Made by a program: the position numbers and the translations under genes | Shown: one piece after another, positions 2,632-39,512 of the stretch | Numbering within the stretch: the first letter of the stretch is position 1 | How the letters are laid out: every line of letters starts with the position of its first letter | The notes under the pieces: generated by a model | The model's database searches: none | Seen by the model: only the letters and a program-made list of their open reading frames with translations | Told to the model about the DNA's origin: nothing | NCBI RefSeq assembly: GCF_001442615.1 | Contig: NZ_LMXN01000003.1 | Coordinates: 372,001-436,000, forward strand | Length of the DNA stretch: 64,000 nt | Reading direction: 5' to 3' | Origin: Algoriphagus resistens | GTDB lineage: Bacteria > Bacteroidota > Bacteroidia > Cytophagales > Cyclobacteriaceae

Positions 2632-4410
2632 TTAATCTTGCTTTTGCCGGATCAGGCGTTTCCGATATGCATTAAAGATTCTGGACTTTGAAACAAAGCC
2701 TAAATACTTGCCTTCTTCAATTACAGGAAGATTCCAAGCTCCGGAAAGTTCAAATTTTTCCATCGCTTTTTGCATATTCTCAGTAGCCAATAGGATTTCG
2801 GGAGGGCTATGCATAAGCTCCCGTATCAAAATTATTTCCTGCTTTTCCCGATCAAACATAATGTCTCTGATGTCATCCAGAGTCACTATGCCTCGCAAAG
2901 CGCCATTTTTATCTACTACCGGGAAAATATTTCTCTTGGAGATTTTAACCAAGCTGATCAAGTCTTTTAATTTAGCATCAGGATGAATTGGTAACAAATC
3001 CCGTTCGATTACATTGGTAATCGTTATGAGTTCCAGCAGTTCTTGATCTTTCGATTCTGGCAGATGTCTCCCTTTTTCCTTCAACTGTATCATGTAGATA
3101 CTGTCCTTCTGATAGGCTGTCTTTGTGACGTACGAGATTGCAGAGACGAACATCAAAGGAATGAACAGTTCGTAGCCTCCGGTAATTTCTGCTATCAAGA
3201 ATATCGCTGAGAGCGGCGCATGCTGGGCACCCGCCATCACCCCGCACATAGCCACCAGAGTGAAATGAGCGAGTGGGAGAGGAATCGTAAAATCAAAAAG
3301 ATTGCTGGAGTAAGCAAAGAGAAAACCCAATATACCCCCTACGTAGAGTGAAGGGGCGAATATACCGCCACTGCCACCAGCTCCGAGGGTTACTGCTGAG
3401 GCAATGGGCTTTACCATAATAATAAATGCAAGAAAAATAATGATCAAATAGGGATTTTCTATAAGGGAGAAAAACGGACTTTTTTCAAGTAATTGGCTGG
3501 AGTTACCCTCTATCAGCGTGTTGAGCGTATCATATCCTTCCCCATAAATGGGAGGTAGGAAGAATACCATGATTCCTAATATAGCCCCTCCATATAGGAT
3601 CCGTAATGCTTGGCTTTCTAGCCCCTCCATGAGAGATTCAGTTTTTCTTACAGCCTGGCTGAAATACAGGGAAACTAAGCCACATGCAATTCCCAAAAGT
3701 AGGTAATAAGGCATATGGGAAGCTTGGAAACTTTCTGTCAATTTGAAATTGAACACGGAGTCTTTCCCAATAAGAACCATAGAGGTGAGCGAACCGGTTA
3801 CAGTGGCAATTAGTAATGGAATAAAACTGGCTGTGCTGATTTCCATTAAAATAACTTCAATAGCGAAAATCACGCCTCCAATAGGGGCACCGAAAATGGA
3901 GGAAATCGCTGCTGCAGCACCGCATCCAATCAATAATGTGCGTTTTTTTGCATTCAGATGCACCAGAGAGCCCACATTTGAACCAATAGCAGAACCTGTT
4001 ACCAACATAGGGGCTTCAAGTCCTACAGACCCTCCAAAACCGACTGTTATCGCTGAGGTAAAAACACGGCTGTACGTTTTTACTCTGGCAATAATACTTT
4101 GCTTTTTGGAAATAGTAAATAAAATATCCGGGATCCCATGCCCTCCCGCATCTTTAAAAATAAATTTACCTATAAGATACGCCGCCGAAATACCTATGAG
4201 CGGATAAATGATGTAAAGAAAATTTGCATACTCTTTATAAAACCCCTCAGTAAGAAAATGCTGGATGGCATGCACCCCTTGTTTTAGAATCACTGCTGCA
4301 AGGCCCGAAAGAATTCCTATTATCCCACTGAGAATGAGAATAAAGGTTTGGTTGCTCATGTGTCTGAGCCTCCATATCAAGAGCCTGGTGATGAAGTCTG
4401 TTTTAGCCAA
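2632..4410 (-). CDS. ClC-family chloride channel/transporter with CBS domains
   Basis: This 592-residue polytopic membrane protein belongs to the ClC anion channel or Cl-/H+ exchanger family. Family motifs are in order: GHGIP at 90-94, GLEAP at 130-134 with the gating glutamate Glu132, and GAGGSGGIFAPSLYVGG in the second half. The C-terminal 130 residues form a pair of CBS domains, expected to bind adenine nucleotides and regulate gating. The long frame begins with TTG at 4410; the first ATG (4359, MSNQTFILI) would remove the LLIWRLRHMS stretch, which I recall as common in relatives, so TTG is preferred but uncertain. It is transcribed alone, convergent with mtgA. Transported ion and physiological role cannot be read from sequence. 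Confidence 0.88.
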   Translation of the reverse strand: MAKTDFITRLLIWRLRHMSNQTFILILSGIIGILSGLAAVILKQGVHAIQHFLTEGFYKEYANFLYIIYPLIGISAAYLIGKFIFKDAGGHGIPDILFTISKKQSIIARVKTYSRVFTSAITVGFGGSVGLEAPMLVTGSAIGSNVGSLVHLNAKKRTLLIGCGAAAAISSIFGAPIGGVIFAIEVILMEISTASFIPLLIATVTGSLTSMVLIGKDSVFNFKLTESFQASHMPYYLLLGIACGLVSLYFSQAVRKTESLMEGLESQALRILYGGAILGIMVFFLPPIYGEGYDTLNTLIEGNSSQLLEKSPFFSLIENPYLIIIFLAFIIMVKPIASAVTLGAGGSGGIFAPSLYVGGILGFLFAYSSNLFDFTIPLPLAHFTLVAMCGVMAGAQHAPLSAIFLIAEITGGYELFIPLMFVSAISYVTKTAYQKDSIYMIQLKEKGRHLPESKDQELLELITITNVIERDLLPIHPDAKLKDLISLVKISKRNIFPVVDKNGALRGIVTLDDIRDIMFDREKQEIILIRELMHSPPEILLATENMQKAMEKFELSGAWNLPVIEEGKYLGFVSKSRIFNAYRKRLIRQKQD

Positions 4411-4478
4411 AATTTCGCGTTAGTAGCGTGCTTTATAGTCTAAGGTAAGTAAGATATGAATGAATGAAAAGAAGGGGT

Positions 4479-5408
4479 TTACTCTTTAGGCAATTCCGCG
4501 TCCAGTGCTAAGGTACATTTCAAGATAAGATTGACCGCATTGATATAAAATTGCTGGTCAATATTTTCGAATGAATCACTCGGTTTATGGTAATCGGGAT
4601 GATCTTCTACTCCAAAATAAATGTGCGGAACATTGGCGTTGAAGAATGGACCATGATCCGAGGATTGTGTCCAGTTGTCTGCGCCTGTGTTTGGCTCATC
4701 GTGTCCAAACATCAATTTCGGTGTGGAGCCCGCAGCCGCGCTTTTGAGGATTGTTTTTAAACTTGGATTGTAATAGGTTCCAGAGGCGTACAATTCACCT
4801 TTTTCGTTTCTTGAAATCATATCCATATTGATATTTAAGACGATTTGCTCCAAAGGAAACGGGAAATCGTTTACCAATGCTTTTGCACCCTGTAATCCCA
4901 TCTCCTCACCGTCTAGAGCAGCAAAAATCATAGAATGTGCTGGTCTGTTTTTGTTGAAATACTTTGCCAGTTCTATCAACGCAGCGGTTCCCGAAGCATT
5001 ATCATCTGCACCGTTGTAGATGGAATCACCTTCAGCATTTGGCTTGCCAGCGCCTACATGATCGTAGTGTGCTGTGATTACGATTAATTTTTTCGAAGAA
5101 CTGCCTGCAACAAATCCAACGATGTTCACCGCGTTTTCATAGTTCTTTTTATCTCTTTTATTTTCAAAACTGAATTCTTGCTGAAAATCGGTATAGTGGG
5201 TTTCAAGTCCGATATTTGTGAACTGGTCCAAAATAAAATCACGTGCCTTGGAATTGCCTGCACTGCCTGTTTTTCGACCTTTAAGCGCGTCTGCGGATAA
5301 AAACTCAATATTTTCTATAAGGCTTTTGCCAGCAATACTTTGTCCATTTACTTGGAAAAATACCAGAAAGAATAAGCAACTTAGCGTGTTTTTGATTGTG
5401 GGTTGCAT
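4479..5408 (-). CDS. Secreted M28-family zinc aminopeptidase/peptidase
   Basis: A Sec signal peptide (residues 1-23, ending VNGQ) precedes an M28 peptidase domain. Two-zinc ligands typical of the family are visible: His114 in TAHYDHVG, Asp135 in GADDNASG, Glu168/Glu169 in DGEEMG (catalytic base and ligand), Asp196 in NMDM, and His252 in SSDHGPFF. The protein is 309 residues with no extra domains. It probably trims peptides in the periplasm or outside the cell; exact specificity is unknown. The gene is divergent from the secreted protein at 5478. Confidence 0.9.
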   Translation of the reverse strand: MQPTIKNTLSCLFFLVFFQVNGQSIAGKSLIENIEFLSADALKGRKTGSAGNSKARDFILDQFTNIGLETHYTDFQQEFSFENKRDKKNYENAVNIVGFVAGSSSKKLIVITAHYDHVGAGKPNAEGDSIYNGADDNASGTAALIELAKYFNKNRPAHSMIFAALDGEEMGLQGAKALVNDFPFPLEQIVLNINMDMISRNEKGELYASGTYYNPSLKTILKSAAAGSTPKLMFGHDEPNTGADNWTQSSDHGPFFNANVPHIYFGVEDHPDYHKPSDSFENIDQQFYINAVNLILKCTLALDAELPKE

Positions 5409-5477
5409 CAGGGAAAGTATTTTGCGTTATGTATATTGGTAAAATTAATAAGCTTAGTGGATCACACCTCTGAATTC

Positions 5478-6464
5478 ATGAAATATAATACCCTGCTTGC
5501 TTTTATTCTTTTGATAAATCTCCAGTTGGTTTCGGCCCAGGGGAGTTTGCCCCAATCATTTTTTGATGGTAAATCAGTGGTTTTTATCTCTACTGACCCC
5601 AGTGCCAGACCCAAGATGACCTGGAAAGAAGTGGCTGATAGTGTGCATAATTCTTTGGTAAAGGCAGGAGCTGATCCTGTGGCCTATTTTGAGCTGGAGA
5701 AGATCGCTCTCTCGGAAGCCGTTCAGGCAGATTATGCCAAAATATTCCAACAGCGGCTTGTGAAAAATATTGTCCTGGTCACCCGTCAGAAAAACCAGAT
5801 GAGTATTCATGTTGCACCGTTTTCTGAAGATGGGCAGATCATTCCTTCCATCGCTTTATTTGGTATCAGTGGGGCTGACATAGAAGAGGTTACCAACCAA
5901 TTTAAATCAATAGGTGAGAATCAGCCTTCCAAAAATCTTCTTGTGTTGGACGTGCCAGCGTTTCTTACCATTGGTTCCACTGAGTCTTCCTCAAGCCAGA
6001 AATTTTTGGCAAAAAACCCACTTAATCTGAATGTTTTTAAATTGGGAATTCCCATTGAAGGATCATCTGCTGCGACTGGTTTGTTAAGTTATTTCAGATA
6101 CGATAGGTATGGTAAATCGTCTGAAATTATTATGGCCGAACAGGCCGCTCAGAAAGCTGGAATCGAGCAGGTACTCAAGCAGGAATATCCGTATCAGATA
6201 GAATGGCTGACAGAGCCAAAATCTGTAGAGGAATTGATTCGCGATAGAGTACAATTTCTATTGGTGAAAGTGGAGGGTAGGGAGGCAGATTTAATGAAAA
6301 GCATGGGACTCGAGCCTAAAACTGATGAGTCGTCTTCGCGTATAGTGGTCAAATATTACATTAAACTCCTGGTACGGGAAGAACTCTATATTGGCCCTGA
6401 ATGGGATGCTGATCCGGACTGGAGAGTTGCGTTAGATAGTTTTTTGAAGAATTTAAAAAAGTAG
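5478..6464 (+). CDS. Secreted protein of unknown function
   Basis: The start is placed at the ATG at 5478 because it begins a clean signal peptide (MKYNTLLAFILLINLQLVSA); an upstream in-frame ATG at 5403 would add 25 residues and overlap the divergent peptidase gene. The mature protein of about 305 residues is soluble, of mixed alpha/beta character, with no cysteines in the mature part and no motif I recognise. The C-terminal part (VKYYIKLLVREELYIGPEWDADPDW) is the most distinctive stretch. It is a single-gene unit whose stop codon lies inside a strong hairpin. Function unknown. Confidence 0.75.
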   Translation: MKYNTLLAFILLINLQLVSAQGSLPQSFFDGKSVVFISTDPSARPKMTWKEVADSVHNSLVKAGADPVAYFELEKIALSEAVQADYAKIFQQRLVKNIVLVTRQKNQMSIHVAPFSEDGQIIPSIALFGISGADIEEVTNQFKSIGENQPSKNLLVLDVPAFLTIGSTESSSSQKFLAKNPLNLNVFKLGIPIEGSSAATGLLSYFRYDRYGKSSEIIMAEQAAQKAGIEQVLKQEYPYQIEWLTEPKSVEELIRDRVQFLLVKVEGREADLMKSMGLEPKTDESSSRIVVKYYIKLLVREELYIGPEWDADPDWRVALDSFLKNLKK

Positions 6465-6486
6465 ACCTCTCGGACGAGAGGTCTAC
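6455..6486 (-). terminator. Rho-independent terminator, overlaps a stop codon
   Basis: A perfect 11-bp inverted repeat, GTAGACCTCTC (6461-6471) and GAGAGGTCTAC (6476-6486) with loop GGAC, overlaps the TAG of the rightward gene. Read leftward the stem is followed by TTTTTTAAATTC, so it is a canonical terminator for the leftward YjjX-type gene; it may also stop rightward transcripts. Confidence 0.8.
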
Positions 6487-6657
6487 AGCTACTTAATGCT
6501 AGGGGTGATATAAGCAACTTTTACTACGGTTGATTTCTAAAAGGAGTTTGTAATATTCCGCGCCTTTTGGATAAATCAAAGTTTTAAATTTCAATTATTC
6601 AATAATAGTCAATTATTTTCCAATTAAAAGGGACTTACACAAAAAAATTATTTTTCT

Positions 6658-7224
6658 TTAGAAGAGCTCGTTATTTAGAAACGGAATTAACGCTAGCACA
6701 ATTGCCTGATTATAATAAGTTTGCCTTGTAATTGTCCCGCGAGTGAGTATTCCTACGGCCCCGCCATTTTGTTTAGAATTTTCCTGAGCAAAAAATTGAT
6801 CATTGGCTATGCCCAGTTCCATTCCCGAGCGTATTAGCTCAGCGATAGCTTTAGGAAGGTAGAAGGTCCCTGTCTTCGCTTTGCCGTGAAGTCCGGATTT
6901 ATTTTCTATATAAATCCAGGCGAAAGCATACATACCTCGCCCGTCTTCTCCTATGCCACCTTCTATTCCTACCCAATAATCTGCCTCCGGGAAAGTTTTT
7001 TTAGAATTGAGCACACGGTTTCTAGCGCCCAGATAAGTCTCTTCATCGCCTTTTGGCTGGTCAGATACCTGTGAGGCGGCATTGATTCCATTTACGATGA
7101 ATCCTGTGGCAAATGCTTCTGTAAATGCCGATTCGGTACAGGCTATTTTTACAGGATTTTTACTTCCTACAATTACTAAAGGTTTTTCTGAAGCCTGAAA
7201 ATTCTCTCTTTTGGGGAAATTCAT
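6658..7224 (-). CDS. yjjX: Inosine/xanthosine triphosphatase (YjjX/NTPase family)
   Basis: This 188-residue protein matches the YjjX family, which hydrolyses non-canonical purine NTPs (ITP, XTP) to keep them out of nucleic acids. Seen in sequence: the N-terminal VGSKNPVKIACTESAF phosphate-binding stretch (about 20-35), GDEETYLGARNRV in the middle, WVGIEGGIGEDG, and the C-terminal GGAVGILTRG. Length is close to the E. coli protein. The gene lies 25 bp after the YebC-family gene, but a terminator sits between them, so it may be partly independently transcribed. The short N-terminal extension (MNFPKRENFQASEK) is unremarkable. Confidence 0.85.
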   Translation of the reverse strand: MNFPKRENFQASEKPLVIVGSKNPVKIACTESAFTEAFATGFIVNGINAASQVSDQPKGDEETYLGARNRVLNSKKTFPEADYWVGIEGGIGEDGRGMYAFAWIYIENKSGLHGKAKTGTFYLPKAIAELIRSGMELGIANDQFFAQENSKQNGGAVGILTRGTITRQTYYNQAIVLALIPFLNNELF

Positions 7225-7230
7225 AGAATA

Positions 7231-7254
7231 AAAAAACCTAGGCGGATGCCTAGG
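7231..7254 (-). terminator. Rho-independent terminator after the YebC-family gene
   Basis: The leftward transcript forms CCTAGGC-loop-GCCTAGG (7237-7243 with 7248-7254) followed by seven U residues. The stem includes the TAG stop codon of the YebC-family gene, leaving no room between gene end and terminator. Confidence 0.85.
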
Positions 7255-7957
7255 CCATATTGGTGAAAATTTGGTTTACATCGTCATCTTCTTCCATCTT
7301 TTCGATCATCTTATTGATGATCTCTTCCTGCTCTTCATCGAGCTCAGTAAGCGTAGATGGGAAGCGCTGGAAATCTGCGCTGATCACTTCTATATTTTTT
7401 TCTTCCAGTACTTTTTGCATGGTCCCAAAATCTTCAAATTCGGTGTAAACGAAAATTTCTCCTTCATTTTCATCGATATCAACCAACCCGAAATCAATCA
7501 ACTCAAACTCCAGTTCTTCTAAGTCAAAGTCACCCTTCGCAAAACGAAACACAGCTTTTCTGTCAAACATAAAGACAACTGAACCAGAAGTTCCCAAAGA
7601 GCCCCCGGCCTTAGAGAAATAGCTTCTCACATTCGCAACCGTTCGATTGATATTGTCCGTGGAGGTTTCCACAATGACCGCAATTCCAAAAGGACCATAA
7701 CCTTCATAGACTACTTCTTCGTAATCTTTTTCGTCCTTATTGGAGGCTCTCTTGATTGCCGCCTCTATCCTGTCCTTTGGCATTTGAGCACCTTTGGCAT
7801 TCTGGATAATGGTACGAAGTCTTGGATTTGAAGCGGGATCGGGACCTCCCGATTTCACTGCCATCACGATTTCCTTGCCTAGGCGCGTAAAAACTTTGGA
7901 CATTTTGTCCCAACGCTTGAATTTTCTCTCTTTTCTGAATTCAAATGCTCTTCCCAT
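7250..7957 (-). CDS. yebC: YebC/PmpR (TACO1) family regulatory or translation factor
   Basis: The 235-residue protein has the three-part YebC/TACO1 fold. The N-terminus MGRAFEFRKERKFKRWDKM, then FTRLGKEIVMAVKSGGPDPASNPRLR and ENAKGA-like NAKGAQMPKDRIEAAIKRA, are hallmark family sequences. The family was first described as transcription regulators (PmpR); more recent work links it to relief of ribosome stalling on polyproline. The acidic C-terminus (DELDEEQEEII...EEDDDV) is usual. It starts at ATG 7957, divergent from the NADH dehydrogenase gene, and ends in a terminator. Confidence 0.92.
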   Translation of the reverse strand: MGRAFEFRKERKFKRWDKMSKVFTRLGKEIVMAVKSGGPDPASNPRLRTIIQNAKGAQMPKDRIEAAIKRASNKDEKDYEEVVYEGYGPFGIAVIVETSTDNINRTVANVRSYFSKAGGSLGTSGSVVFMFDRKAVFRFAKGDFDLEELEFELIDFGLVDIDENEGEIFVYTEFEDFGTMQKVLEEKNIEVISADFQRFPSTLTELDEEQEEIINKMIEKMEEDDDVNQIFTNMA

Positions 7958-8102
7958 GGTTAGTAATATTAGGGTGGTAAAATTAGCAATTCTTTTCGTT
8001 TAGGCTGAAAAATGAAGACCTTCAGACAAAGATTTGGTAATTTCAGCCCAGGAATCAGTCCAAAATAGCCCATAAACTGTAAGCACTAAAAACACGTTTA
8101 AA

Positions 8103-9434
8103 ATGTCGGATTTTCTATTACACCCCCTCCCGAATATTCCTAAATCGGATTTACCAAAAGTAGTGATCGTAGGGGCGGGCTTTGGCGGGTTAAAATTAGC
8201 CATGAAGTTGATGAATAAGCAGTTTCAGGTCATTTTATTGGACAAGCACAATTATCATCAGTTTCAGCCGCTTTTTTATCAGGTGGCAACTGCAGGATTA
8301 GAGCCGAGTGCGATTTCATTTCCACTCCGCAAAGTTTTTCACGGTTCTAGAAATGTGACTTTCCGCATGGCCCAGGTGGATCACTTTGATCCTGAAATCA
8401 AACGGCTCTATACAGATATGGGTTTCATTGACTACACCTATCTGGTGATGGCAATGGGTGCTGACACGAACTATTTTGGATCAAAAAGCATAGAGGAATC
8501 AGCATCCCCGATGAAAACTGTTTCGGAGGCACTTTATATCCGGAACAAGATAATTTCTAATTACGAACGGGCTATCAATATCGAGAAAGCAGAAGACCGT
8601 AAATCTCTTATGAATGTGGTCATTGTGGGGGGAGGACCCACAGGGGTAGAGCTGGCCGGCGCGATGGCTGATCTGAGAAATACGGTATTACCGAAGGATT
8701 ATCCTGAGTTGAATTTTCACAACATGAAAATTGTACTCATAGAAGCAGGCCCGGAATTACTTGGACCAATGTCAAAAGAATCCAAACAATGTGCTTTAAA
8801 ATACCTTCAAAATCTTGGCGTAGAGGTAATGTTGAACACCATGGTGAAGGATTATAATGGCAATGAAGTAATACTTGCTGATAAAGAAGCGATCCAGACT
8901 CAGACATTGCTTTGGGCTGCAGGAATTAAACCGAACAGGATCGGAGGATTGGAAGAAGATAGGTATGCGCCGAATGGAAGAATTTTTGTAGATGATTTCT
9001 CAGAAGTAAAAGGGTGTCCGGATGTTTATGCCTTAGGGGACATTAGCTTAATGACTCAGGATGCTTATCCGAAGGGACACCCTCAAGTCGCGCAGGTAGC
9101 CATACAGCAGGCGGTATGTCTGGCCCATAACCTCCACAAGATTGAAGAAGGAAAGGAAAGAAAGGCTTTTCAATATAAAGATCTCGGATCAATGGCAACA
9201 GTAGGTAGAAAACTTGCGGTCGTTGACCTTCCTTTTATTAAGTTCCAGGGGATATTGGCTTGGTTTACCTGGTTATTTGTGCACTTGATGGCTATTCTCG
9301 GAGTAAAAAATAAAGTATTTATATTTCTGGATTGGTCTTGGAACTATCTGAGCTTTGACCCAAGTCTCAGGTTACTGATAAAGCCAAAGGTGGTACGTCC
9401 AAGTGAACAGAAGGAATTGACCGAAGAAAGATGA
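8103..9434 (+). CDS. ndh: Type II NADH:quinone oxidoreductase (NDH-2)
   Basis: This is a single-subunit FAD enzyme that passes electrons from NADH to the quinone pool without pumping protons. Two Rossmann motifs are present: VVIVGAGFGGLKLA (FAD, glycines 24-29) and VVIVGGGPTGVELAG (NADH, 176-181). DVYALGDIS is the late FAD-binding motif. The quinone-site motif region (HPQVAQVAIQQA) precedes a hydrophobic C-terminal region (FQGILAWFTWLFVHLMAILG) that anchors the enzyme to the inner membrane. The 443 residues fit the family. ATG at 8103 is the only good start. It is monocistronic by spacing. Confidence 0.9.
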   Translation: MSDFLLHPLPNIPKSDLPKVVIVGAGFGGLKLAMKLMNKQFQVILLDKHNYHQFQPLFYQVATAGLEPSAISFPLRKVFHGSRNVTFRMAQVDHFDPEIKRLYTDMGFIDYTYLVMAMGADTNYFGSKSIEESASPMKTVSEALYIRNKIISNYERAINIEKAEDRKSLMNVVIVGGGPTGVELAGAMADLRNTVLPKDYPELNFHNMKIVLIEAGPELLGPMSKESKQCALKYLQNLGVEVMLNTMVKDYNGNEVILADKEAIQTQTLLWAAGIKPNRIGGLEEDRYAPNGRIFVDDFSEVKGCPDVYALGDISLMTQDAYPKGHPQVAQVAIQQAVCLAHNLHKIEEGKERKAFQYKDLGSMATVGRKLAVVDLPFIKFQGILAWFTWLFVHLMAILGVKNKVFIFLDWSWNYLSFDPSLRLLIKPKVVRPSEQKELTEER

Positions 9435-9527
9435 GCGCTTTAACTGTTGTTAACAGAATCTCTTCTGGATCAGATTAAACCGATTAAAGCAAGTCCAGTC
9501 TAATCCATGTAACTAAACAACGGACAC

Positions 9528-9956
9528 ATGAAGAAATGGATTTTCGCGACAGGGTTGATGGTAATGATCAGCCTAAGCACAATGGCACAGAAAAGAGACG
9601 GAGAAAGACCAAGTGCGGAGGATAGAGCTAAAAGAAACACCGAACGGATTGCTGAGGAACTCAACCTCACAGATGCCCAGAAGGAACAGGTTCTAGCTAT
9701 CAATTTGGAATATGCCAAAAAGAATGAAGCAGAAATGGCGGAGAGAAAAGCTATGATGGAAGCCCGTAAGGCAGAGATGGAAGCTAAAAGGGTTCAGTTG
9801 AGGGAGCAAGACGCCAAAATACAGGCTGTATTGACTGAGGAACAACGAGCGAAGTGGACTGAAATCAAAGCTGAGAAAATGAATGATCGCCGCAGAGGAA
9901 GACCAAATGCTCAAATTGAAAATGACCCCAGAAAAGGGAGAAAAGGGGATAATTAA
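9528..9956 (+). CDS. Small secreted LTXXQ (Spy/CpxP-like) protein
   Basis: A signal peptide (MKKWIFATGLMVMISLSTMA) precedes a highly charged, almost fully helical protein of about 120 residues. An LTxxQ motif lies at residues 47-51 (LTDAQ) and a second LTEEQ about 60 residues later, as in the Spy/CpxP family of periplasmic chaperones. The middle is a Lys/Glu/Met-rich helix (AEMAERKAMMEARKAEMEAK) and the tail is basic. Family role is inferred; Bacteroidota relatives may be chaperones or metal/stress proteins. It lies 93 bp after the NDH-2 gene and is followed by a terminator. Confidence 0.7.
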   Translation: MKKWIFATGLMVMISLSTMAQKRDGERPSAEDRAKRNTERIAEELNLTDAQKEQVLAINLEYAKKNEAEMAERKAMMEARKAEMEAKRVQLREQDAKIQAVLTEEQRAKWTEIKAEKMNDRRRGRPNAQIENDPRKGRKGDN

Positions 9957-9983
9957 TCCCTATTATAATTGTCTCCAACAAAG

Positions 9984-10016
9984 AAGCCATCCCGAAATCA
10001 ATCGAGATGGCTTTTG
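9984..10016 (+). terminator. Rho-independent terminator
   Basis: A 12-bp stem with one mismatch (AAGCCATCCCGA at 9984-9995 with TCGAGATGGCTT at 10002-10013) is followed by a short T run. It closes the rightward LTXXQ gene in the convergent gap before gltD. Confidence 0.7.
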
Positions 10017-10042
10017 TATGAATAAAGAGATAGAGATTTCGC

Positions 10043-11515
10043 TTAATCTGCAATCTCCTCTTCTACCTGAAAGAAAGATTCGTCTTTCTGGGGAAGGGTA
10101 GATTCTCCCATTAGATATTCGTCCACTTTTACTGCAGCCTCTCTACCTTCGGATATTGCCCATACGACCAAGGACTGTCCTCTGCGCATATCACCGGCCA
10201 GGAAAACCTTAGAATTTGTGCTTTGGTAATTTTTTGATTTTGGAAGCGTATTCTCCATAGATTCTACTCCGAAAGCTTCCAGCAAGCCATTTTGAGTAGG
10301 ACCAGTGTAGCCAATGGCCAAGAATGCCAAGTCACATGGAACAGTACGTTCTGTTCCGGCGATTTCTTCAAAAACCATTCGCCCGTCTTTATGAACCCAT
10401 TCCAGATCGACTAGATTCAACCCAGTGACCTGACCTGCTTCGTTCACGACAAATTCTTTAGTGAGCACAGAGAATACCCGCTCAGCTCCCTCTTCATGAG
10501 AACTGGAAGTTCTCAGGGTCATAGGCCATTCCGGCCATGGATTGAGTGTATTTCTTTGCTGAGGAGGTTTGGGTAGTAACTCAAGCTGCATGATAGAAGC
10601 CGCTCCGTGTCTATTGGAAGTGCCTATGCAGTCACTTCCTGTATCACCACCGCCGATCACGATCACATGTTTGCCTTTTGCCGATATCGGGTTTTCTTTG
10701 ATCTCACCCGACACAACCTTGTTTTGTTGACCTAAAAATTCCATTGCAAAATGAACTCCTTTGGCTTGGGCTCCTTTAATGCTCAAACCTCTAGGCTGCC
10801 CTGCCCCGGTGGAAAGCACCACGGCATCGAAATTCTTGAGAATATTTTCTGCTTTGATATTGAAGCCAACTTCTGTGTCACAGGAGAAAATCACTCCTTC
10901 CTGCTTCATGAATTCTATCCGTCGATCAATCACCCATTTTTCCAGTTTGAAATCGGGGATACCAAATCTAAGGAGTCCTCCAGGTTTGGAGTCTTTTTCG
11001 AAAAGCGTCACTTCATGTCCCGCTTGATTGAGCTGGTCTGCTGCTGCAAGTCCTGCCGGACCTGATCCAATCACAGCCACATGCTTTCCTGTTCTTGTTT
11101 TAGGAGGGTTTGCTTTGATCAGGCCAAGTTCATAGGCCTTTTCAGCAATGTTTTTTTCGATCAATTCAATCGCAACCGGATCTTTATTGATTCCCAAAAC
11201 ACAGCTGGCCTCGCAAGGAGCAGGACAAATTCTCCCAGTGAATTCAGGGAAATTGTTTGTGCTCCTTAATATTTTAATTGCTTGCTCCCACTCGTTATTG
11301 TACACCGCATCATTAAAATCCGGAATTACATTACCAAGAGGGCATCCATTGTGACAAAACGGTACTCCGCAGTCCATGCATCGCGCAGCCTGATTATTTA
11401 ATTTTTCGCCCGAGAAGGGCTCATATATTTCCTTGTAGTCACCTATTCTAGCTTTCGCGTCACGGGTAACCGGGGTTTCTCTTTTGAATTGAATAAATCC
11501 TTCTTTCGCTCCCAT
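10043..11515 (-). CDS. gltD: Glutamate synthase (NADPH) small subunit
   Basis: GltD takes electrons from NAD(P)H through FAD and passes them via iron-sulfur clusters to GltB, where glutamine and 2-oxoglutarate become two glutamates. The N-terminal ferredoxin-like domain has cysteines 46, 49, 54, 58 (CMDCGVPFCHNGC) and 97, 101, 105 (CPAPCEASC). An FAD Rossmann motif VAVIGSGPAGLAA follows at about 146, an NAD(P)H motif VIVIGGGDTGSDCIG near the middle, and AGDMRRGQSLVVWAI near the end. At 490 residues it is full length. It begins one base after the gltB stop, so the two are translated from one leftward operon. Confidence 0.96.
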   Translation of the reverse strand: MGAKEGFIQFKRETPVTRDAKARIGDYKEIYEPFSGEKLNNQAARCMDCGVPFCHNGCPLGNVIPDFNDAVYNNEWEQAIKILRSTNNFPEFTGRICPAPCEASCVLGINKDPVAIELIEKNIAEKAYELGLIKANPPKTRTGKHVAVIGSGPAGLAAADQLNQAGHEVTLFEKDSKPGGLLRFGIPDFKLEKWVIDRRIEFMKQEGVIFSCDTEVGFNIKAENILKNFDAVVLSTGAGQPRGLSIKGAQAKGVHFAMEFLGQQNKVVSGEIKENPISAKGKHVIVIGGGDTGSDCIGTSNRHGAASIMQLELLPKPPQQRNTLNPWPEWPMTLRTSSSHEEGAERVFSVLTKEFVVNEAGQVTGLNLVDLEWVHKDGRMVFEEIAGTERTVPCDLAFLAIGYTGPTQNGLLEAFGVESMENTLPKSKNYQSTNSKVFLAGDMRRGQSLVVWAISEGREAAVKVDEYLMGESTLPQKDESFFQVEEEIAD

Positions 11516-11516
11516 T

Positions 11517-14500
11517 TTACGCCAACGATTTTGATTGTTCTAATGCTCTTTTCTCTAAAACTGCCTTGTAATCTCTAGGAATTACCTTGATGAATTTCTC
11601 TTTGGTTTTATCCCAATCTTCAAGGAATTTAGTGCCTAAAGCCGACTTGGTCAGTTTCACATGTCTTTTGAGGAATGTCTTGATTGTAGTGAAATCCTCA
11701 TCTTCGAGAATATCTATGTCTACCAATTCCGGATTGATTTCCGTGATGTAGTCTTTGAGTATATAAGCGATACCACCGCTCATTCCTGCCGCAAAGTTCC
11801 TTCCGATTTCTCCAAGGTTCACCACTAATCCCCCGGTCATGTATTCACATCCATGATCGCCTATTCCTTCTACCACGGTTTGTACCCCTGAGTTTCTTAC
11901 ACAGAATCGCTCTCCGCCTTTTCCATTTATATATGCTTCTCCGGAAGTGGCGCCATAGAACGCTACGTTACCGATGATGATATTTTCTTCCGGAGCGAAT
12001 TTGGCATTTCTGCTTGGATAGATAATGAGTTTGCCGCCGGAAAGACCTTTTCCGAAATAATCATTGGCTTCCCCCTCTAGTTCGAAGTTGACACCCTTGG
12101 TAAGGAATCCGCCGAAAGTCTGGCCTGCAGAACCGGTAAATTTGAAGTTGATCGTATCCTCTGGCAATCCTGGACTTCCGTATATTTTAGAAATCTCATT
12201 GGAAAGCATTGCACCCACTGATCTGTCTATATTCTTAATCTGGAAGTTGCCCGATGAAGCCATGGCTTGTTCAAGGGAAGGAAGCGCAGCTTTGATCAAC
12301 TGGCGATCCAAAACTCTTTTTAGTTCAAATTCCTGATCGATTTGCTTGTGGATTCCCACGTGGTCCGGAACTTCGACTTTGTGGAAAATAGGGCTCAGAT
12401 CTACTTTATCCCACTTCCAGTGATTCAAGTGGCCAGTAGATTGAAGGACGTTACTCTGTCCTACCATTTCATCTATAGTACGGAATCCTAATGACGCCAT
12501 GATTTCTCTTAGATCCTGAACAAGGAATTGGAAGTAATTTACCACGTGATCCGGATCTCCGGTAAATAGTTTTCTCAAATCCGGATTTTGGGTTGCGATA
12601 CCTACAGGGCAGGTATTTAAATGACATTTTCTCATCATAATGCAACCCTCTACCACAAGTGCAGCAGTAGAAATACCCCATTCTTCAGCTCCCAAAAGTG
12701 TCGCTATTGCAAGATCACGACCGGTTCTAAGCTGGCCATCGGTCTGAAGTACGACGCGGCTTCGCAAATTATTTTTTACCAGGGTCTGGTGAGCTTCTGA
12801 AAGGCCAAGCTCCCAAGGCAACCCTGCATGGCGTATGGAGCTCAACGGAGAAGCTCCGGTTCCGCCATCCGCACCAGAAATAAGGATCACGTCAGCCATA
12901 GCTTTTGCCACACCAGCTGCCACAGTACCTACACCGGCTTGAGAAACAAGCTTAACGTTAATTCTGGCTTTTCTATTTGCGTTTTTTAAATCGAAGATCA
13001 GCTGGGCCAAATCCTCAATGGAATAAATATCGTGGTGAGGAGGTGGGGAGATCAATCCCACTCCAGGGGTAGAATGTCTTACTCTACCGATCCAATCATC
13101 TACTTTATGCCCCGGAAGCTGACCGCCTTCTCCTGGCTTGGCACCCTGTGCCATCTTGATTTGTAGTTCGGCTGCATTGGTGAGATAATTACTTGTCACT
13201 CCAAATCTACCTGAGGCTACCTGCTTGATGGCTGAGCGCTCCCAGTCTCCATTTTCTTTTTTGGCAAAGCGGATCTCATCTTCCCCTCCTTCTCCAGAGT
13301 TGCTTTTGGCTCCGATTCGGTTCATGGCTATCGCCAAAGTAGAATGCGCTTCGTGGGAAATAGAACCGAAAGACATGGCTCCGGTGGCAAATCTCCGCAT
13401 AATAGAAGATGCCGGTTCTACCTCGTCGATCGGGACAGTGATTCGCTTTTTGAATTCGAATAAGCCTCTCAATGTCAATGCATCTTTGCTTTGCTCATTT
13501 ATTTTGGCTGCAAATTTCTTATACAGACCAAAGTCATTTAAGCGCGTTGATTTTTGTAATAAGTGGATTGTTTCAGGATTGAACAAGTGTTTTTCACCTC
13601 TTCGCTTCCACTGATACACGCCACCCTGTTCTAGAATTGGAGATTCAGTTTCATAAGCGGCTCTGTGACGGATTAATACCTCCTCTGCCAATTCGTCAAA
13701 GGAAATCCCGGATATTCTGGATATGGTTCCTTTAAAACATCTGTCGATGACATCAGGCCCAAGACCTATGGCTTCGAAAATCTGGGCGCTTTGATAGGAT
13801 TGAAGTGTACTGATACCCATTTTGGAAAGAACTTTCAATAGTCCTTTTCCTATCGCGGCTTGATAATTCGAAAATAGTTTCTTCTGGCTTTTCACATTTG
13901 GGAGCTCACCTTTCTCAAACATAGCCAAAAGTGATTCTAGGGCCATATACGGGTTGATGGCAGAGGCTCCGTAGCCAATAGCGGTAGCAAAATGATGCGT
14001 TTCACGGATATCTCCGGATTCTAAAACTAAGCCAGCGCTGGTTCTGATCTTCTTCTTGACCAGGTGATGATGCACGGCACCTATCGCCAATAGAGACGGG
14101 ATCGGTGCATATTCTACAGTGCTGTTACGGTCAGAGATGATAATGATGTTTTTCCCTTCACTGATCGCCTTTTCTGCTTCATTGCAAATCTTGTCGAGAG
14201 CTTCCAAAAGTCTTCCCGGCTTATGATCGGCAAGGAAATGACTCGAAAGAGTAGCACATCTATAGCCCTGTCCTTCCATCTTTTGAATCTTTTCCAAATC
14301 CTCATTCAAAAGAACAGGTTGGGAAATGTGGATTTGACGTGTATGTTTTGGGCTTTCTTCCAAGATGTTTTGTCCGACGCCCAGCCGGGTGAACAGCGAC
14401 ATGACCAACCGCTCCCGGATAGGATCAATCGGAGGATTACTCACCTGAGCAAACAGCTGCTTGAAATAATTGGAGATATGCTGGCTTTCTTTGGAAAGAA

Positions 14501-16007
14501 CAGCAAGGGGCGTATCCGCTCCCATAGAACCGATTGCCTCATAAGCAATATCTCCCATGGGGCTTAATACTACTTTGAGCTCCTCAGAAGTATATCCAAA
14601 TATAGTTTGATGCTTCTTAATATTCTCGGTAGAATAAGGATGGGTCAATGTGACAGGCGCATCTTCCAGGCGAAGTTTGATTCGTTGATCAGCTACCCAT
14701 TTCTCATAGGGTTGCTTGCTACATACTTCTCCTTTTACTTCCTCGTCAAATACTACCCGGCCTTTTTCCAAATCCGCCCAAATCATTCTCCCTGGGCTAA
14801 TTCTTCCTTTTTCTATAATGGTAGCCTCACGGATAGGTAAGGCTCCGGCTTCTGAGGAAAGGATAAGTCGGTTATCTTTTGTGATGAAATATCTTAATGG
14901 ACGTAAACCATTTCTGTCCAGTGTAGCACCTACGGATTTTCCATCTGTAAACAACAAAGCTGCAGGACCGTCCCAAGGCTCCACAAGTGATGCGTGGAAT
15001 TTATAGAAAGATTTTCTGTCCCTGTCCATTACCTCGTTATCCTGCCAGGCTTCTGGTACGAGCATCATCATGGCATGAGGAAGAGATCTTCCGCTCAGGG
15101 TCAGAAGCTCCACCATTGCATCGAGATTAGCCGAATCAGATTTTTGTTTATCGGTAATAGGCATCAACCTGGAAAGCTCCTCATCAGTGAAATACTTGGA
15201 TTTCATGAGGTTTTCCTTTGATTTCATCTTGTTCAGATTTCCTTTGATCGTATTGATCTCACCGTTGTGGGAAAGAAAACGGAAGGGCTGGGCCAGTCTC
15301 CAGTTTGGAAAGGTATTGGTCGAGAATCTGGAGTGCACGATCGCAAAAGCGGATTCGATTTTGGAGTTCTGAAGGTCTTTGTAAAAGGCCAAAACCTGGT
15401 CAGTACGTAGCTGTCCTTTATATATAAGTGTCTGGCTACTCAAACTGGCAAAATAGAAGGACTGATTTACACCTGGGATTTTGGTATTGATCTCTGAGGT
15501 AGCGTAGTTTCTAAGCACATACAGCTTACGCTCCAGCTCAATTCCGGTAAGCCCCTTTTTATGCTTGACAAAAAGCTGTTCAATATTAGGCATCACTTCC
15601 AGTGCACCGGACCCTGGCACTGTTTCGTCCACAGGCACAGATCTATAGCCTATCAGTTCAAAACCCAGCTCTTCAATCAGCTGATTGAGGAGCTCTTTTG
15701 ACCGGTGGAATAATTGCTTATTCTTTGGAAAAAAGGTCATACCCACACCATAAGATCCAGCTTCAGGAAGCGAGATCTCTGTACGCGCAGTAATATCCCT
15801 TAGGAACTGATGAGGCACCTGAATCAATATGCCAGCTCCATCGCCAGTCTTAGGATCAGATCCACGACCGCCACGGTGCTCCATATTGCTTAGCATATAT
15901 AAGGCATCGCTAATCGTCTCATGTGAGGGTACTGCGCTCAGATCAACAACCGCACCTATACCGCAGGAGTCATGCTCAAACTCCGATCGATACAAACCTT
16001 CTTGCAT
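11517..16007 (-). CDS. gltB: Glutamate synthase large subunit
   Basis: The large subunit holds four parts in order: an N-terminal class II glutaminase, a central domain, the FMN-binding synthase barrel, and the C-terminal GXGXG beta-helix. I place the start at ATG 16007 (MQEGLYRSEFEHDSCG), which leaves a short propeptide before the nucleophile Cys15; a TTG at 16040 would add 11 residues. The cysteines binding the 3Fe-4S cluster are in CIMMRKCHLNTCPVG. The synthase loop PGEGGQLPGHKV and GGSGGIAY-like GGIAYIL repeats at the C-terminus are intact. With 1,496 residues it is full length. It precedes gltD in a two-gene nitrogen-assimilation operon. Confidence 0.96.
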   Translation of the reverse strand: MQEGLYRSEFEHDSCGIGAVVDLSAVPSHETISDALYMLSNMEHRGGRGSDPKTGDGAGILIQVPHQFLRDITARTEISLPEAGSYGVGMTFFPKNKQLFHRSKELLNQLIEELGFELIGYRSVPVDETVPGSGALEVMPNIEQLFVKHKKGLTGIELERKLYVLRNYATSEINTKIPGVNQSFYFASLSSQTLIYKGQLRTDQVLAFYKDLQNSKIESAFAIVHSRFSTNTFPNWRLAQPFRFLSHNGEINTIKGNLNKMKSKENLMKSKYFTDEELSRLMPITDKQKSDSANLDAMVELLTLSGRSLPHAMMMLVPEAWQDNEVMDRDRKSFYKFHASLVEPWDGPAALLFTDGKSVGATLDRNGLRPLRYFITKDNRLILSSEAGALPIREATIIEKGRISPGRMIWADLEKGRVVFDEEVKGEVCSKQPYEKWVADQRIKLRLEDAPVTLTHPYSTENIKKHQTIFGYTSEELKVVLSPMGDIAYEAIGSMGADTPLAVLSKESQHISNYFKQLFAQVSNPPIDPIRERLVMSLFTRLGVGQNILEESPKHTRQIHISQPVLLNEDLEKIQKMEGQGYRCATLSSHFLADHKPGRLLEALDKICNEAEKAISEGKNIIIISDRNSTVEYAPIPSLLAIGAVHHHLVKKKIRTSAGLVLESGDIRETHHFATAIGYGASAINPYMALESLLAMFEKGELPNVKSQKKLFSNYQAAIGKGLLKVLSKMGISTLQSYQSAQIFEAIGLGPDVIDRCFKGTISRISGISFDELAEEVLIRHRAAYETESPILEQGGVYQWKRRGEKHLFNPETIHLLQKSTRLNDFGLYKKFAAKINEQSKDALTLRGLFEFKKRITVPIDEVEPASSIMRRFATGAMSFGSISHEAHSTLAIAMNRIGAKSNSGEGGEDEIRFAKKENGDWERSAIKQVASGRFGVTSNYLTNAAELQIKMAQGAKPGEGGQLPGHKVDDWIGRVRHSTPGVGLISPPPHHDIYSIEDLAQLIFDLKNANRKARINVKLVSQAGVGTVAAGVAKAMADVILISGADGGTGASPLSSIRHAGLPWELGLSEAHQTLVKNNLRSRVVLQTDGQLRTGRDLAIATLLGAEEWGISTAALVVEGCIMMRKCHLNTCPVGIATQNPDLRKLFTGDPDHVVNYFQFLVQDLREIMASLGFRTIDEMVGQSNVLQSTGHLNHWKWDKVDLSPIFHKVEVPDHVGIHKQIDQEFELKRVLDRQLIKAALPSLEQAMASSGNFQIKNIDRSVGAMLSNEISKIYGSPGLPEDTINFKFTGSAGQTFGGFLTKGVNFELEGEANDYFGKGLSGGKLIIYPSRNAKFAPEENIIIGNVAFYGATSGEAYINGKGGERFCVRNSGVQTVVEGIGDHGCEYMTGGLVVNLGEIGRNFAAGMSGGIAYILKDYITEINPELVDIDILEDEDFTTIKTFLKRHVKLTKSALGTKFLEDWDKTKEKFIKVIPRDYKAVLEKRALEQSKSLA

Positions 16008-32269: not shown

Positions 32270-33460
32270 TCAATATAAAAACCCGAAAATCCACATAGGC
32301 AGACTTTGTCCTGCGGGGTAATCTATATCATCTTTGACGATCCAAGTGTTATTTGCTGTGGCTTGCTTAGTTGATTTTCCTTTTCCTCCAATCTCAAAAT
32401 TAAATTGATTGTCAATCAGAAAATCTACTGTTTTGGAGAAATTGACTCTATGGCCCACTTTGATGATGCTATTGAAGAAAGTTTCTCTTACTGTACCGAT
32501 TTCAGGTTTGACTTCACTAAGCGCATAGAGATAATTGGTGTTGTTCAAGAATATTTTTTCAGGTTTTTGTAGCGTAGCTACGCTGATCCCCGCAGGATAC
32601 TGTAGGTCGATGAGTCTTGCCTTGGCCAGATATAGCATGTAATTGCCCATGGAGTTACGGTGGATTTGCGTTTTCTCAGCCAAGGCCGAAACGTTGGGTT
32701 TGAAAGGAACCTGCTGAGCTATGATGTAGAGAAGTTGGAGTATTTTTTTTCCATTTCTGATATCAAAACCACGGATCTCGGCCATGTCATATTCTACTAT
32801 CGTGCGGATGAGTTGCCGCAGTTTTTTGAAATACATCTCTTCATTTGAGCCGGAGAAAGGATAGTAACCTGTTTTGAGATAGTCAGGAAAATACCGGAGC
32901 GGTTTGAATTCTTTTGGGTACAATGTCCTAATATTTAAGATAGGATCAAGGATTTGATCTAGCGTGATTACAGGCAAATCTTGATCGTGGTATAACTTTA
33001 GAAATTCGCGATAAGATAAACCGTGTAGTTCATACATCACGGCTCTTCTGCTTAAATCCCCCTCTTCTTTGCTTATATCAACAATCGAGGATCCTGTAAA
33101 AACGATCTGCAGGTCGGGATACCTGTCGTAGAGATTTTTAATTTCTTTAGACCATGTGGGGTATTTGTGGACTTCATCTAATGCAACGATTTTTCCTCCG
33201 GATTGATAAAATCTCTTGACCGTATCTAGCAGGCTATTGGAGAGGAAAAACAGCTCGTCCAATGAGAAATAGGAAACTTGAGCTCCTTCCCGTTTTTTCT
33301 CTTTAAGATATTGAAATACTAAGGTTGTCTTTCCTGTTCCTCTCGCACCTTTAATTCCTATAAGTCTTTCTCCCCAATCTATTTTTTCATACAGGTACCG
33401 CTTGAAATTAAATTTCGTATTGTCAAGCAGTAAATTTGAAATATCCAGTAACTCTTCCAT
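32270..33460 (-). CDS. AAA+ ATPase with DUF4143 C-terminal domain (copy 1)
   Basis: The 396-residue protein has a P-loop GARGTGKTT (38-46), Walker B IVALDEV (about 90-97), and a sensor stretch IVFTGSS. A winged-helix-like middle (KTQIHRNSMGNYMLYLAKARLI) and the DUF4143 C-terminal part (FFNSIIKVGHRVNFSKTVDFLIDNQFNFEIGGKGKS) follow; the last stretch resembles a degenerate PD-(D/E)XK nuclease. The function of this large Bacteroidota family is unknown. Its start codon is the end of the first of three 18-bp palindromes. The gene stands alone between an M14 peptidase and a carboxylesterase. Confidence 0.85.
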   Translation of the reverse strand: MEELLDISNLLLDNTKFNFKRYLYEKIDWGERLIGIKGARGTGKTTLVFQYLKEKKREGAQVSYFSLDELFFLSNSLLDTVKRFYQSGGKIVALDEVHKYPTWSKEIKNLYDRYPDLQIVFTGSSIVDISKEEGDLSRRAVMYELHGLSYREFLKLYHDQDLPVITLDQILDPILNIRTLYPKEFKPLRYFPDYLKTGYYPFSGSNEEMYFKKLRQLIRTIVEYDMAEIRGFDIRNGKKILQLLYIIAQQVPFKPNVSALAEKTQIHRNSMGNYMLYLAKARLIDLQYPAGISVATLQKPEKIFLNNTNYLYALSEVKPEIGTVRETFFNSIIKVGHRVNFSKTVDFLIDNQFNFEIGGKGKSTKQATANNTWIVKDDIDYPAGQSLPMWIFGFLY

Positions 33461-38131: not shown

Positions 38132-38178
38132 ATTTACCATGAAATCCGTAAATCATACTTTCGATTTTCATGGTAAAA
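38132..38178 (+). repeat. 47-bp palindromic repeat, copy 1
   Basis: The repeat is bounded by perfect 12-bp arms, TTTACCATGAAA at 38133-38144 and TTTCATGGTAAA at 38166-38177, with a loop of 21 bp. It is identical over 47 bp to copy 2, with a 77-bp period. A nested TTTAC/GTAAA inverted repeat lies in its left half. Confidence 0.9.
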
Positions 38179-38208
38179 TCTGTTTGAGATGTAGAATTAA
38201 TTGCTGAT

Positions 38209-38255
38209 ATTTACCATGAAATCCGTAAATCATACTTTCGATTTTCATGGTAAAA
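38209..38255 (+). repeat. 47-bp palindromic repeat, copy 2, overlapping the ATPase start
   Basis: Identical to copy 1 (47/47). The right arm TTTCATGGTAAA contains the ATG (38247-38249) of AAA+ copy 2, so the hairpin would occlude the start of translation, and any DNA-binding protein would sit on the promoter end. Confidence 0.9.
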
Positions 38256-39389
38256 GATCGCTTTATATTCCCATTGCTTCAGGAATACCTGTCAATTTTC
38301 CCTGCTGTAGGACTTCTTGGCCCAAGACAGGTAGGGAAAACTACGCTCGTCAAAAGCCTGAATCTCGACAGAGAGAGTGTTTACATTGACCTAGAAAGAG
38401 CCTCTGATCGAGCCAAATTGATGGATGCGGAGCTGTATCTTAAGGCGCATGCGAAGAAGACGGTGATTCTCGATGAGATTCAATTGATGCCTGAGCTTTT
38501 TTCAGAACTGAGAAGTCTGATCGATGAGCAGCGTGAGCCGGGCAGGTTTATTCTATTGGGTTCGGCATCGCCGGATTTGATCCGGAAAAGTGCTGACTCA
38601 CTTGCAGGCAGGATTGGATACTTGGAACTGACTCCTTTTTTTGCAGAAGAGGTGGCTGGGGATGAGTTGGAGAAACTATGGATTCGTGGAGGATTTCCGT
38701 TGTCATTTTTGGCAAGAAGTGAGAGAGAGTCGCAGTTGTGGAGACAGAATTTTATCAAAACATATCTGGAAAGAGACCTGGCGCAGATAGGGTTGAGTAC
38801 TGATCCAAGGCTGGTGGAGCGCTTTTGGATTATGCTTGCAAATGCGCAGGGAGGGATCTGGAATGGAGAAAGTTTCGCACGAGCCCTGGGAATTACACGC
38901 CCTACAGTAAATCGGTATTTGGAATACCTAGAGGGATCTTTTATGGTACGTGTGCTGCCCCCATTTCATCAGAATATCAAAAAGCGTCTGGTAAAATCTC
39001 CGAAAGTCTTTATACGGGATACGGGTTTGCTGCATTCGCTGACCGGGGTGACTTCCATGGATTCCTTGATTAATCAAGTGTTAGCAGGTGCTTCGTTGGA
39101 AGGATTTGTGATTGAGCAGATTACCTCAACCTTTGGGCAGGAGTATGACTATTATTTCTACAGGACGCATCAGGGAGCAGAATGTGATCTGCTTTTGGTA
39201 AAAAATGGAGTTGTCAAAACTGCTATAGAAATTAAAAACACCCTTTCTCCCAAACTCACCAAAGGACTTATGATATCCATGGAAGATTCCGGAGCGGAAA
39301 ACGGAGTGGTGATTTGTAGGATAGATCAGGGATTTCCGCTGTCCGAGAAGGTAAAGGCAATGGGATTGAGAGAGTTTTTGCGTAGTTAG
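38247..39389 (+). CDS. AAA+ ATPase with DUF4143 and PD-(D/E)XK-like end (copy 2)
   Basis: This 380-residue protein has a P-loop GPRQVGKTT (25-33), Walker B VILDEI (73-78), and FILLGSAS sensor region. The middle (ESFARALGITRPTVNRYLEYLEGSFMVRVL) is a winged-helix-like segment. The C-terminal DUF4143 domain has GAECDLLL with Asp314 and EIK with Glu328 and Lys330, a pattern expected of PD-(D/E)XK nuclease folds. The ATG lies inside a palindromic repeat. The family is widespread in Bacteroidota and archaea, with unknown function. It shares only family-level architecture with copy 1. It is a single rightward gene framed by repeats. Confidence 0.87.
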   Translation: MVKDRFIFPLLQEYLSIFPAVGLLGPRQVGKTTLVKSLNLDRESVYIDLERASDRAKLMDAELYLKAHAKKTVILDEIQLMPELFSELRSLIDEQREPGRFILLGSASPDLIRKSADSLAGRIGYLELTPFFAEEVAGDELEKLWIRGGFPLSFLARSERESQLWRQNFIKTYLERDLAQIGLSTDPRLVERFWIMLANAQGGIWNGESFARALGITRPTVNRYLEYLEGSFMVRVLPPFHQNIKKRLVKSPKVFIRDTGLLHSLTGVTSMDSLINQVLAGASLEGFVIEQITSTFGQEYDYYFYRTHQGAECDLLLVKNGVVKTAIEIKNTLSPKLTKGLMISMEDSGAENGVVICRIDQGFPLSEKVKAMGLREFLRS

Positions 39390-39465
39390 TGGGTTCAATT
39401 ATGAAATTTTCAGGAATTCAGAGGCTGTAGGCTAAGAATGGTTATTATGGCTGGATGTCTATATT

Positions 39466-39512
39466 ATTTACCATGAAATACGTAAATCAGATCTTCGATT
39501 TTCATGGTAAAA
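39466..39512 (+). repeat. 47-bp palindromic repeat, copy 3
   Basis: It lies 76 bp downstream of the ATPase stop codon, in the same orientation as the two upstream copies. It matches them at 43 of 47 positions, with all differences in the loop and the 12-bp arms fully conserved, suggesting selection on the arms. Confidence 0.88.

Follow-up and report, generated by a model that had tools for sequence, protein, structure and literature searches.

A palindrome partnered with a DUF4143 ATPase gene in Algoriphagus and its possible role as an operator

One described partnership between a gene and short palindromes is that of the repetitive extragenic palindromes (REP) and the RAYT transposases, in which the palindrome usually exceeds 100 copies per genome and diverges along with its partner gene (relevant sections of PMC2817692). 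Among ATPases, the STAND-type protein IniR regulates a promoter, as stated in parts of PMC5760070. The closest match by protein is PDC-S01, reported to rank fourth in frequency among the predicted defence systems of prokaryotes; the relevant parts of PMC12988326 count 29,494 such genes in bacteria and 9,986 in archaea, describe the protein as an ATPase fused to a PD-(D/E)-X-K domain, list PDC-S01 as a candidate, and give validation as pending for most candidates of this sort. No description of its mechanism was found in the open-access literature searched, nor any of a palindrome partner of DUF4143, AAA_14, PDC-S01, SSO1545, PF13635 or PABY2304 (subscription papers lay outside the search). Here we analyze a 64,000-nucleotide stretch of the Algoriphagus resistens genome (contig NZ_LMXN01000003.1, positions 372,001 to 436,000; hereafter the window), in which a gene matching PDC-S01 begins within a near-perfect palindrome, or dyad. 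This dyad is the cognate partner of the gene throughout the genus and may act as an operator for it.

The gene and its dyads are arranged as follows, in positions of the window:

38133 to 38177, forward strand: dyad 1, 45 bp, with perfect 12-bp outer arms (TTTACCATGAAA/TTTCATGGTAAA) and an inner CG..CG; one of three copies in the genome

38210 to 38254, forward strand: dyad 2, of the same sequence as dyad 1, with the start codon in its right arm

38247 to 39389, forward strand: ATPase gene, 380 amino acids, AAA_14 plus DUF4143, PDC-S01 in PADLOC

39467 to 39511, forward strand: dyad 3, 3' of the gene, with four inter-arm differences

The original prediction had described three 47-bp palindromic copies, the second containing the ATG and the third differing only in its loop, and all of this was confirmed. 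Copies 1 and 2 (starting at 38132 and 38209, 77 bp apart start to start) are identical, the ATG at 38247 sits within the right arm of copy 2, and copy 3 (start 39466), which begins 76 bp past the stop (39389), has four mismatches, tallied by eye, all interior to the 12-bp arms. These are real repeats, far above chance expectation: the exact arms occur six times in the window, and nine times if one mismatch is allowed, against a mean of 0.86 and a maximum of 4 in 100 dinucleotide shuffles. Across the 6,129,475-bp genome the exact two-arm pattern is found at these three sites only (0 for the reversed-pattern control), and a longer pattern with up to three mismatches again returns just the three. 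Dyad 3 was considered as a relic of a second gene copy and rejected in that role, there being no gene remnant after it; within the window, the gene's next best match falls on the other ATPase at 32-33 kb (E 3e-4), and the dyad 3 tail resembles the other spacers no better than shuffled sequence does (26, vs 25-28 for the five highest of 20 shuffles).

Within the genus, an orthologue (at least 82% identity) is present in 20 of 72 genomes, all 20 of which carry the dyad (up to 3 mismatches), 18 of them in at least two copies. Altogether the dyad is found in 43 of the 72 genomes and is absent from 29 (reversed-pattern control, 0/72). L172 and L173, being probable chance matches, did not enter the set of dyads compared. 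Copy number varies from one to three between species. Most often dyad 1 is placed at -113 and dyad 2, 76 bp further on, at -37, its right arm containing the start codon. The constraint on the arms that had been proposed from a drifting loop is borne out, the 12-bp arms being kept across the genus and the middle being more variable; in gene-bearing loci, arms differ from the consensus at a mean of 0.8 (dyad 1) and 2.2 (dyad 2) of 32 positions. The claim that dyads frame the gene did not hold beyond the window, since the other Algoriphagus orthologue stretches examined have no downstream dyad, the nearest to one being a half-site (L060). The gene is accompanied by such palindromes in other genera too (L161, L163, L164, L166, L171, L175), and in Lunatimonas, Pleomorphovibrio, Cyclobacterium and two other relatives (L052-L059) dyad 2 has decayed, TANNTTTACATGG and a near-perfect dyad 1 upstream being retained.

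Dyads of one genome resemble each other more than those of different genomes (1.7 vs 2.4 loop differences of 13; permutation p 0.0007, 17 genomes), which suggests homogenization or shared constraint and of which the identical pair of the window is an extreme case. This likeness, the framing of the window gene and a decayed second unit in genome G037 would also be expected of a mobile unit akin to REP-RAYT or to insertion sequences, whose ends or targets would be the dyads and which would move with the gene. The G037 unit, consisting of a dyad with both 12-bp outer arms perfect and gene residues 1-47, lies ~12 kb from the intact copy, which its gene remnant matches at 107 of 133 columns (chance ~0.005). 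Such a unit is nonetheless improbable, given the one to three copies per genome, the shared genomic neighbourhood of gene-bearing and gene-less dyads (see below) and a gene in which Pfam finds no transposase domain (neighbours were not scanned for integrases).

The partnership extends beyond this subfamily. Several further AAA_14/DUF4143 subfamilies in the genus each have their own palindrome. That of a second subfamily, ATCCCTGCAAAT, occurs at 20 places in 17 of the 72 genomes (control 0), 15 of them at the start of a homologue and five with no adjoining gene. Among homologues from Bacteroidota and other phyla, 65 of 114 were retained after removal of relatives with at least 75% identity and of genes with less than 150 nt upstream, and 30 of these 65 have a strong palindrome just upstream. 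The corresponding figures were 3/160 for other open reading frames (ORFs) of the same loci, a set that may include spurious ORFs, 6/182 when the control was repeated with non-overlapping ORFs, and 0/650 for shuffles; the translations of four homologues (L204, L206, L211, L214) are truncated. In many homologues the palindrome extends up to or over the start codon, which in several subfamilies lies in the right arm. Half-site divergence tracks protein divergence (Mantel r 0.41, p 0.0005, n = 38), and the motif TGHAAW is present in 19 of 38 arms vs 2% of background 17-mers.

The encoded protein matches AAA_14 at residues 19-136 (1.6e-26) and DUF4143 at 175-331 (1.1e-40), with AAA_22 below threshold, and the PADLOC model PDLC04790 (PDC-S01) over residues 4-377 (E 5.2e-91). 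Its structure model, derived from a 57-sequence alignment (pLDDT 92.4), matches over residues 1-267 the archaeal ATPases 2qen and 2fna and, lower down, NLR, CED-4 and Avs STAND proteins; the modelled fold is thus AAA+/STAND-like, with a helical, helix-turn-helix (HTH)-like region, as we read the model, at ~159-230. Invariant residues include G25, R27, Q28, G30, K31, D76, E77, D314 and K330, and E312 and E328 are nearly invariant; we read E312/D314...E328-x-K330 within DUF4143 as a putative PD-(D/E)xK-like motif. A Foldseek search with the whole model gave no clear nuclease match for the C-terminal part, which was not searched by itself, the nuclease Card1 (6wxw) ranking only 21st and weakly (E 2e-4, template-modelling score 0.2, root-mean-square deviation 21.6). 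Nothing credible was returned by sequence searches of solved structures or of NCBIfam, and PHROGs gave a clamp-loader profile alone (E 5.6e-4).

Between the dyads lies a promoter-like sequence, with two candidate elements:

38183 to 38186, forward strand: candidate -33 element TTTG, in the 32-bp inter-dyad spacer, 19 nt before the -7 box

38206 to 38213, forward strand: candidate -7 element GATATTTA, which reads TAnnTTTA in the majority of scored orthologues and overlaps dyad 2 at its left edge

These resemble the Bacteroidota promoter consensus TTTG/TANNTTTG given in parts of PMC6847099. In the window's subfamily, TAnnTTTN is present in 15 of 23 scored loci, close relatives being counted separately, and in 10 of those 15 a TTTG lies 17-21 nt away, vs 0.7% expected. 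The scoring excluded L046 (one dyad), L166 and L175; seven of L052-L059 were left unplaced by the script and L055 was misplaced, and by eye all eight have TANNTTTACATGG. From the published spacing, transcription would start at ~38218, inside dyad 2, so that the mRNA would be left without the arm that pairs with the start-codon arm. A promoter-like sequence placed between the dyads and overlapping dyad 2 implies that the dyad most likely works as DNA.

Pairing within the dyads bears on the same question. In the second subfamily both sides have changed in 6 of 18 pairs, giving 16 double-change cells vs 5.2 in shuffles and a single G-U type change; of five measures of this pairing, one, further pair types, did not rise above shuffles. 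The signal is weaker in the window's subfamily (10 pairs vs 6.2 in shuffles; 24 cells vs 21.3). The typed dyad alignment used 56 of 80 distinct sequences, 24 near-duplicates having been dropped by eye. Conserved pairing, the 25 G-U type cells of the window's subfamily and the right-arm start codon of several subfamilies would also suit an RNA hairpin in the mRNA leader that sequesters the start codon for translational control. Such a hairpin is quite improbable, considering the predicted transcript start inside dyad 2, the position of dyad 1 upstream of the promoter-like sequence, the near lack of G-U type changes in the second subfamily, and the lack of any Rfam family, where the sole match, to a microRNA model (E 0.67), fell far short of the gathering score. 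On balance, action as double-stranded DNA is favoured.

With moderate confidence, we take the dyad to be a cognate DNA site that serves as an operator for the product of its own gene. The AAA+/STAND-type ATPase, with its PD-(D/E)xK-like DUF4143 part, would bind the palindrome as a symmetric oligomer. Dyad 2 extends over the -7 box and the start codon as well as the predicted transcript start, and dyad 1 lies just before the -33 box; from these positions, repression of the gene's own promoter would be the most likely outcome of binding. A trigger, which would be an invader if the defence annotation is right, may then switch the ATPase and end the repression.

The dyad is also found without the gene. 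The original prediction had asked whether copies always accompany a DUF4143 gene and had taken numerous unlinked, ATPase-free copies across the genome as a sign of a generic interspersed repeat. Every orthologue-bearing genome has the dyad, and 23 relatives without an orthologue keep one copy as well, mostly at the old place; ATPase-free copies thus exist, unexpectedly, as single solo dyads and not as a generic genome-wide repeat. Each of the 23 has exactly one dyad, vs at least two in 18 of the 20 gene-bearing genomes (Fisher p 3e-10). A UvrA-cluster gene lies on the stretch of 20 of the 23 solos and of 14 of the 19 gene-bearing loci, and the remaining three solos have an M14 peptidase neighbour in common. 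Gene remnants lie beside or near the solo dyad in L104, L107, L108 and L112, and L113 has a weak one. In a tree of UvrA alone, with 32 loci (44 given, 34 matched, two of them too short), gene-less lineages are interspersed among gene-bearing ones, which points to repeated gene loss, in some cases perhaps recent, although repeated gain may account for the same pattern. The best UvrA match of one solo, L102, is a 51% paralogue; this locus was kept in the tree as an outlier and dropped from the solo-pair statistics.

The arms of these solo dyads differ from the consensus at a mean of 1.3 of 32 positions, a figure biased towards conservation by the search cut-off of three mismatches. Over 164 non-independent solo pairs, the difference at uvrA four-fold sites averages 0.64 and that in the arms 0.075. 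For the tree sisters L110 and L111 the values are 0.42 and 1 of 32 (p 7e-7, neutral binomial), which would show arm constraint without the gene only if the loss preceded their split. As a check on the bias, uvrA was sought in 20 of the 29 dyadless genomes and in G055, was found in 17, and could be read in 16 (15 without a pattern match, plus G055). On the 3' side of uvrA, 2 of these 16 were too short (one being G055), one held an intact compensated palindrome (L188), two held broken dyads with gene remnants (L178, L179) and 11 held none; in this small sample, a dyad that is mostly either intact or absent favours maintenance. Some solo assemblies are incomplete (e.g., G055, 74% complete; G001, 89%). 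In other genera, palindromes without the gene on a stretch of up to ~4 kb on each side were found at L162, L165, L167-L170, L174, L176 and L177; the best match to the window protein in their genomes has E 2e-102, and four of the genomes (G377, G402, G338, G403) have none at E <= 1e-60.

The second subfamily behaves alike. Of its five solo palindromes, L224 lies in the same neighbourhood as the gene-bearing L227, judged by the first residues of neighbouring ORFs, and L222, L223, L225 and L226 share another neighbourhood, in which a search with the L121 protein found no gene remnant. Among these four, neighbour genes differ by 0.19-0.67 at four-fold sites and the arms at 2-6 of 34 positions, with 18-20 of 20 positions paired, so that five of six pairs, which are non-independent, show more conservation than neutrality allows (p 2e-5 to 1e-13) and the sixth does not (p 0.09). 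In four of the five genomes family members occur elsewhere, that of G004 at 50% identity to the window protein, and these might act in trans on the solo palindrome, which weighs against conservation free of the gene; the fifth genome, G098, has no family member at E <= 1e-30.

Other roles for the solo dyads fit less well. A replication terminus or dif-like role was rejected, because in four genomes of one contig each, assumed to be circular, dnaA is only ~0.8-1.1 Mb from the dyad, much less than half a genome, and the GC skew of the window switches sign 6-8 kb from the dyad and not at it. Solo dyads could also be co-opted terminators, at least one gene end facing them in 22 of 23 cases and two converging ends in 13 (our own reading), or palindromes that repair themselves by template switching without selection, with which compensated double changes are consistent. 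T-runs of at least four beside the solo arms show no clear excess (11 of 46 sides vs 26 of 184 background stretches), and the stems are A+T-rich; moreover, template-switch repair could keep symmetry and not sequence, and neither process accounts for the sequence being kept. We regard this pair of explanations as the least probable of all those weighed here.

The main rival to the operator is a target or self-marker site, i.e., a palindrome that is the DNA substrate or safe-marker of an ATPase-nuclease in a defence system or selfish element, solo copies being kept as immunity (anti-addiction) or landing sites. Near-intact solo arms despite the wide uvrA divergence (within the three-mismatch cut-off), pairing kept by double changes in the solos of the second subfamily, and the PDC-S01 annotation with its nuclease-like residues all speak for it. 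Set against these, the dyad has gone from beside uvrA in 11 of the 14 readable gene-less stretches without a pattern match, and is thus not essential, and a search at E <= 1e-30 finds no homologue in 10 of the 23 solo genomes; we consider such a site unlikely. Solitary antitoxins are thought to counter addiction, and a palindrome kept after gene loss can be compared with them. By extension, and more doubtfully still, PDC-S01 might be a two-part system of an ATPase-nuclease and its own palindrome as a self-recognition or licensing site, in which the palindrome kept after gene loss would protect from, or ready the genome for, the return of the gene.

Several observations weigh against the operator itself. 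It does not account for the near-intact single dyad of gene-less genomes, and the 13 solos between converging gene ends leave nothing obvious there for an operator to regulate. The promoter is clear in the window's subfamily only, where the window's own box reads GATATTTA, and the second subfamily has no obvious TAnnTTTG. In the window's subfamily, the 25 G-U type cells about equal the 24 double-change cells and thus do not separate DNA from RNA. Of the 65 homologues, 35 fall below the palindrome score threshold of 13, their partner palindrome perhaps being lost, shorter or diverged. Finally, a single part of the protein that reads the palindrome was sought without clear support from sliding-window partial Mantel tests, in which the best of 45 windows, uncorrected, were 305-328 (p 0.007), 193-216 (p 0.013; the beginning of the HTH-like region) and 97-120 (p 0.017), and co-variation of protein residues 209-240 with the half-site was negative.

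The surroundings of the dyads hold further features. Downstream of dyad 3, window positions 39659-60400 form a carbohydrate-utilization island (SusC/SusD and others), and in G037 a ~12-kb carbohydrate-utilization island is inserted between the decayed dyad-gene start and the intact dyad-gene (L114, about 3180-15380). In L161, from another genus, the tandem dyads with the gene (2653, 2729) are followed by a third at 15248, ~12.5 kb downstream. A short GCACAAA/TTTGTGC hairpin, possibly a common terminator or another small repeat, directly follows the dyad in L092, L097, L098, L099 and L103 and lies downstream in L035, L038 and L045. The variable segment between the dyad and uvrA holds a two-gene cassette in L043, L047, L049, L060, L096-L098, L102, L104 and L107, which by our own reading looks like an MNT/HEPN nucleotidyltransferase pair and suggests a small hotspot for such modules. 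The other ATPase gene of the window (32270-33460), with AAA_14 and a sub-threshold DUF4143, has no strong palindrome near its start (L013).

A widespread and poorly understood ATPase gene, a candidate for antiviral defence, thus often begins in or right after its own near-perfect palindrome. A subfamily-specific DNA partner offers a ready ligand for binding, cleavage and structural work and a predicted operator for reporters, and its retention past gene loss is a puzzle testable in cultivated Algoriphagus.

The likeness to REP-RAYT drawn in the original prediction stands in part. As in that system, short palindromes diverge with their partner gene, in several subfamilies and measurably so, and also occur without it. 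Unlike REP sequences, the dyad has not proliferated (three copies in its own genome, one to three in 43 of 72), its upstream copies are tandem and of the same orientation instead of an inverted flanking pair, and its gene encodes an AAA_14 plus DUF4143 ATPase, not an HUH tyrosine transposase of the IS200/IS605 type; nothing observed points directly to mobility. The window protein matches the PDC-S01 model over residues 4-377, and the relevant parts of PMC12988326 do not mention a palindrome. Matches to the archaeal SSO1545 (2fna) and PABY2304 (2qen) end at residue 266-267, short of the C-terminal portion of DUF4143. IniR offers a precedent for a promoter-regulating STAND ATPase, one that, in the parts of PMC5760070 concerned, uses a separate C-terminal DNA-binding domain. 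The overlap with promoter or start expected of an autoregulatory operator is found here, with promoter-like boxes in the window's subfamily only, and what appears new against the open-access literature searched is an operator-like partner palindrome of unusual persistence.
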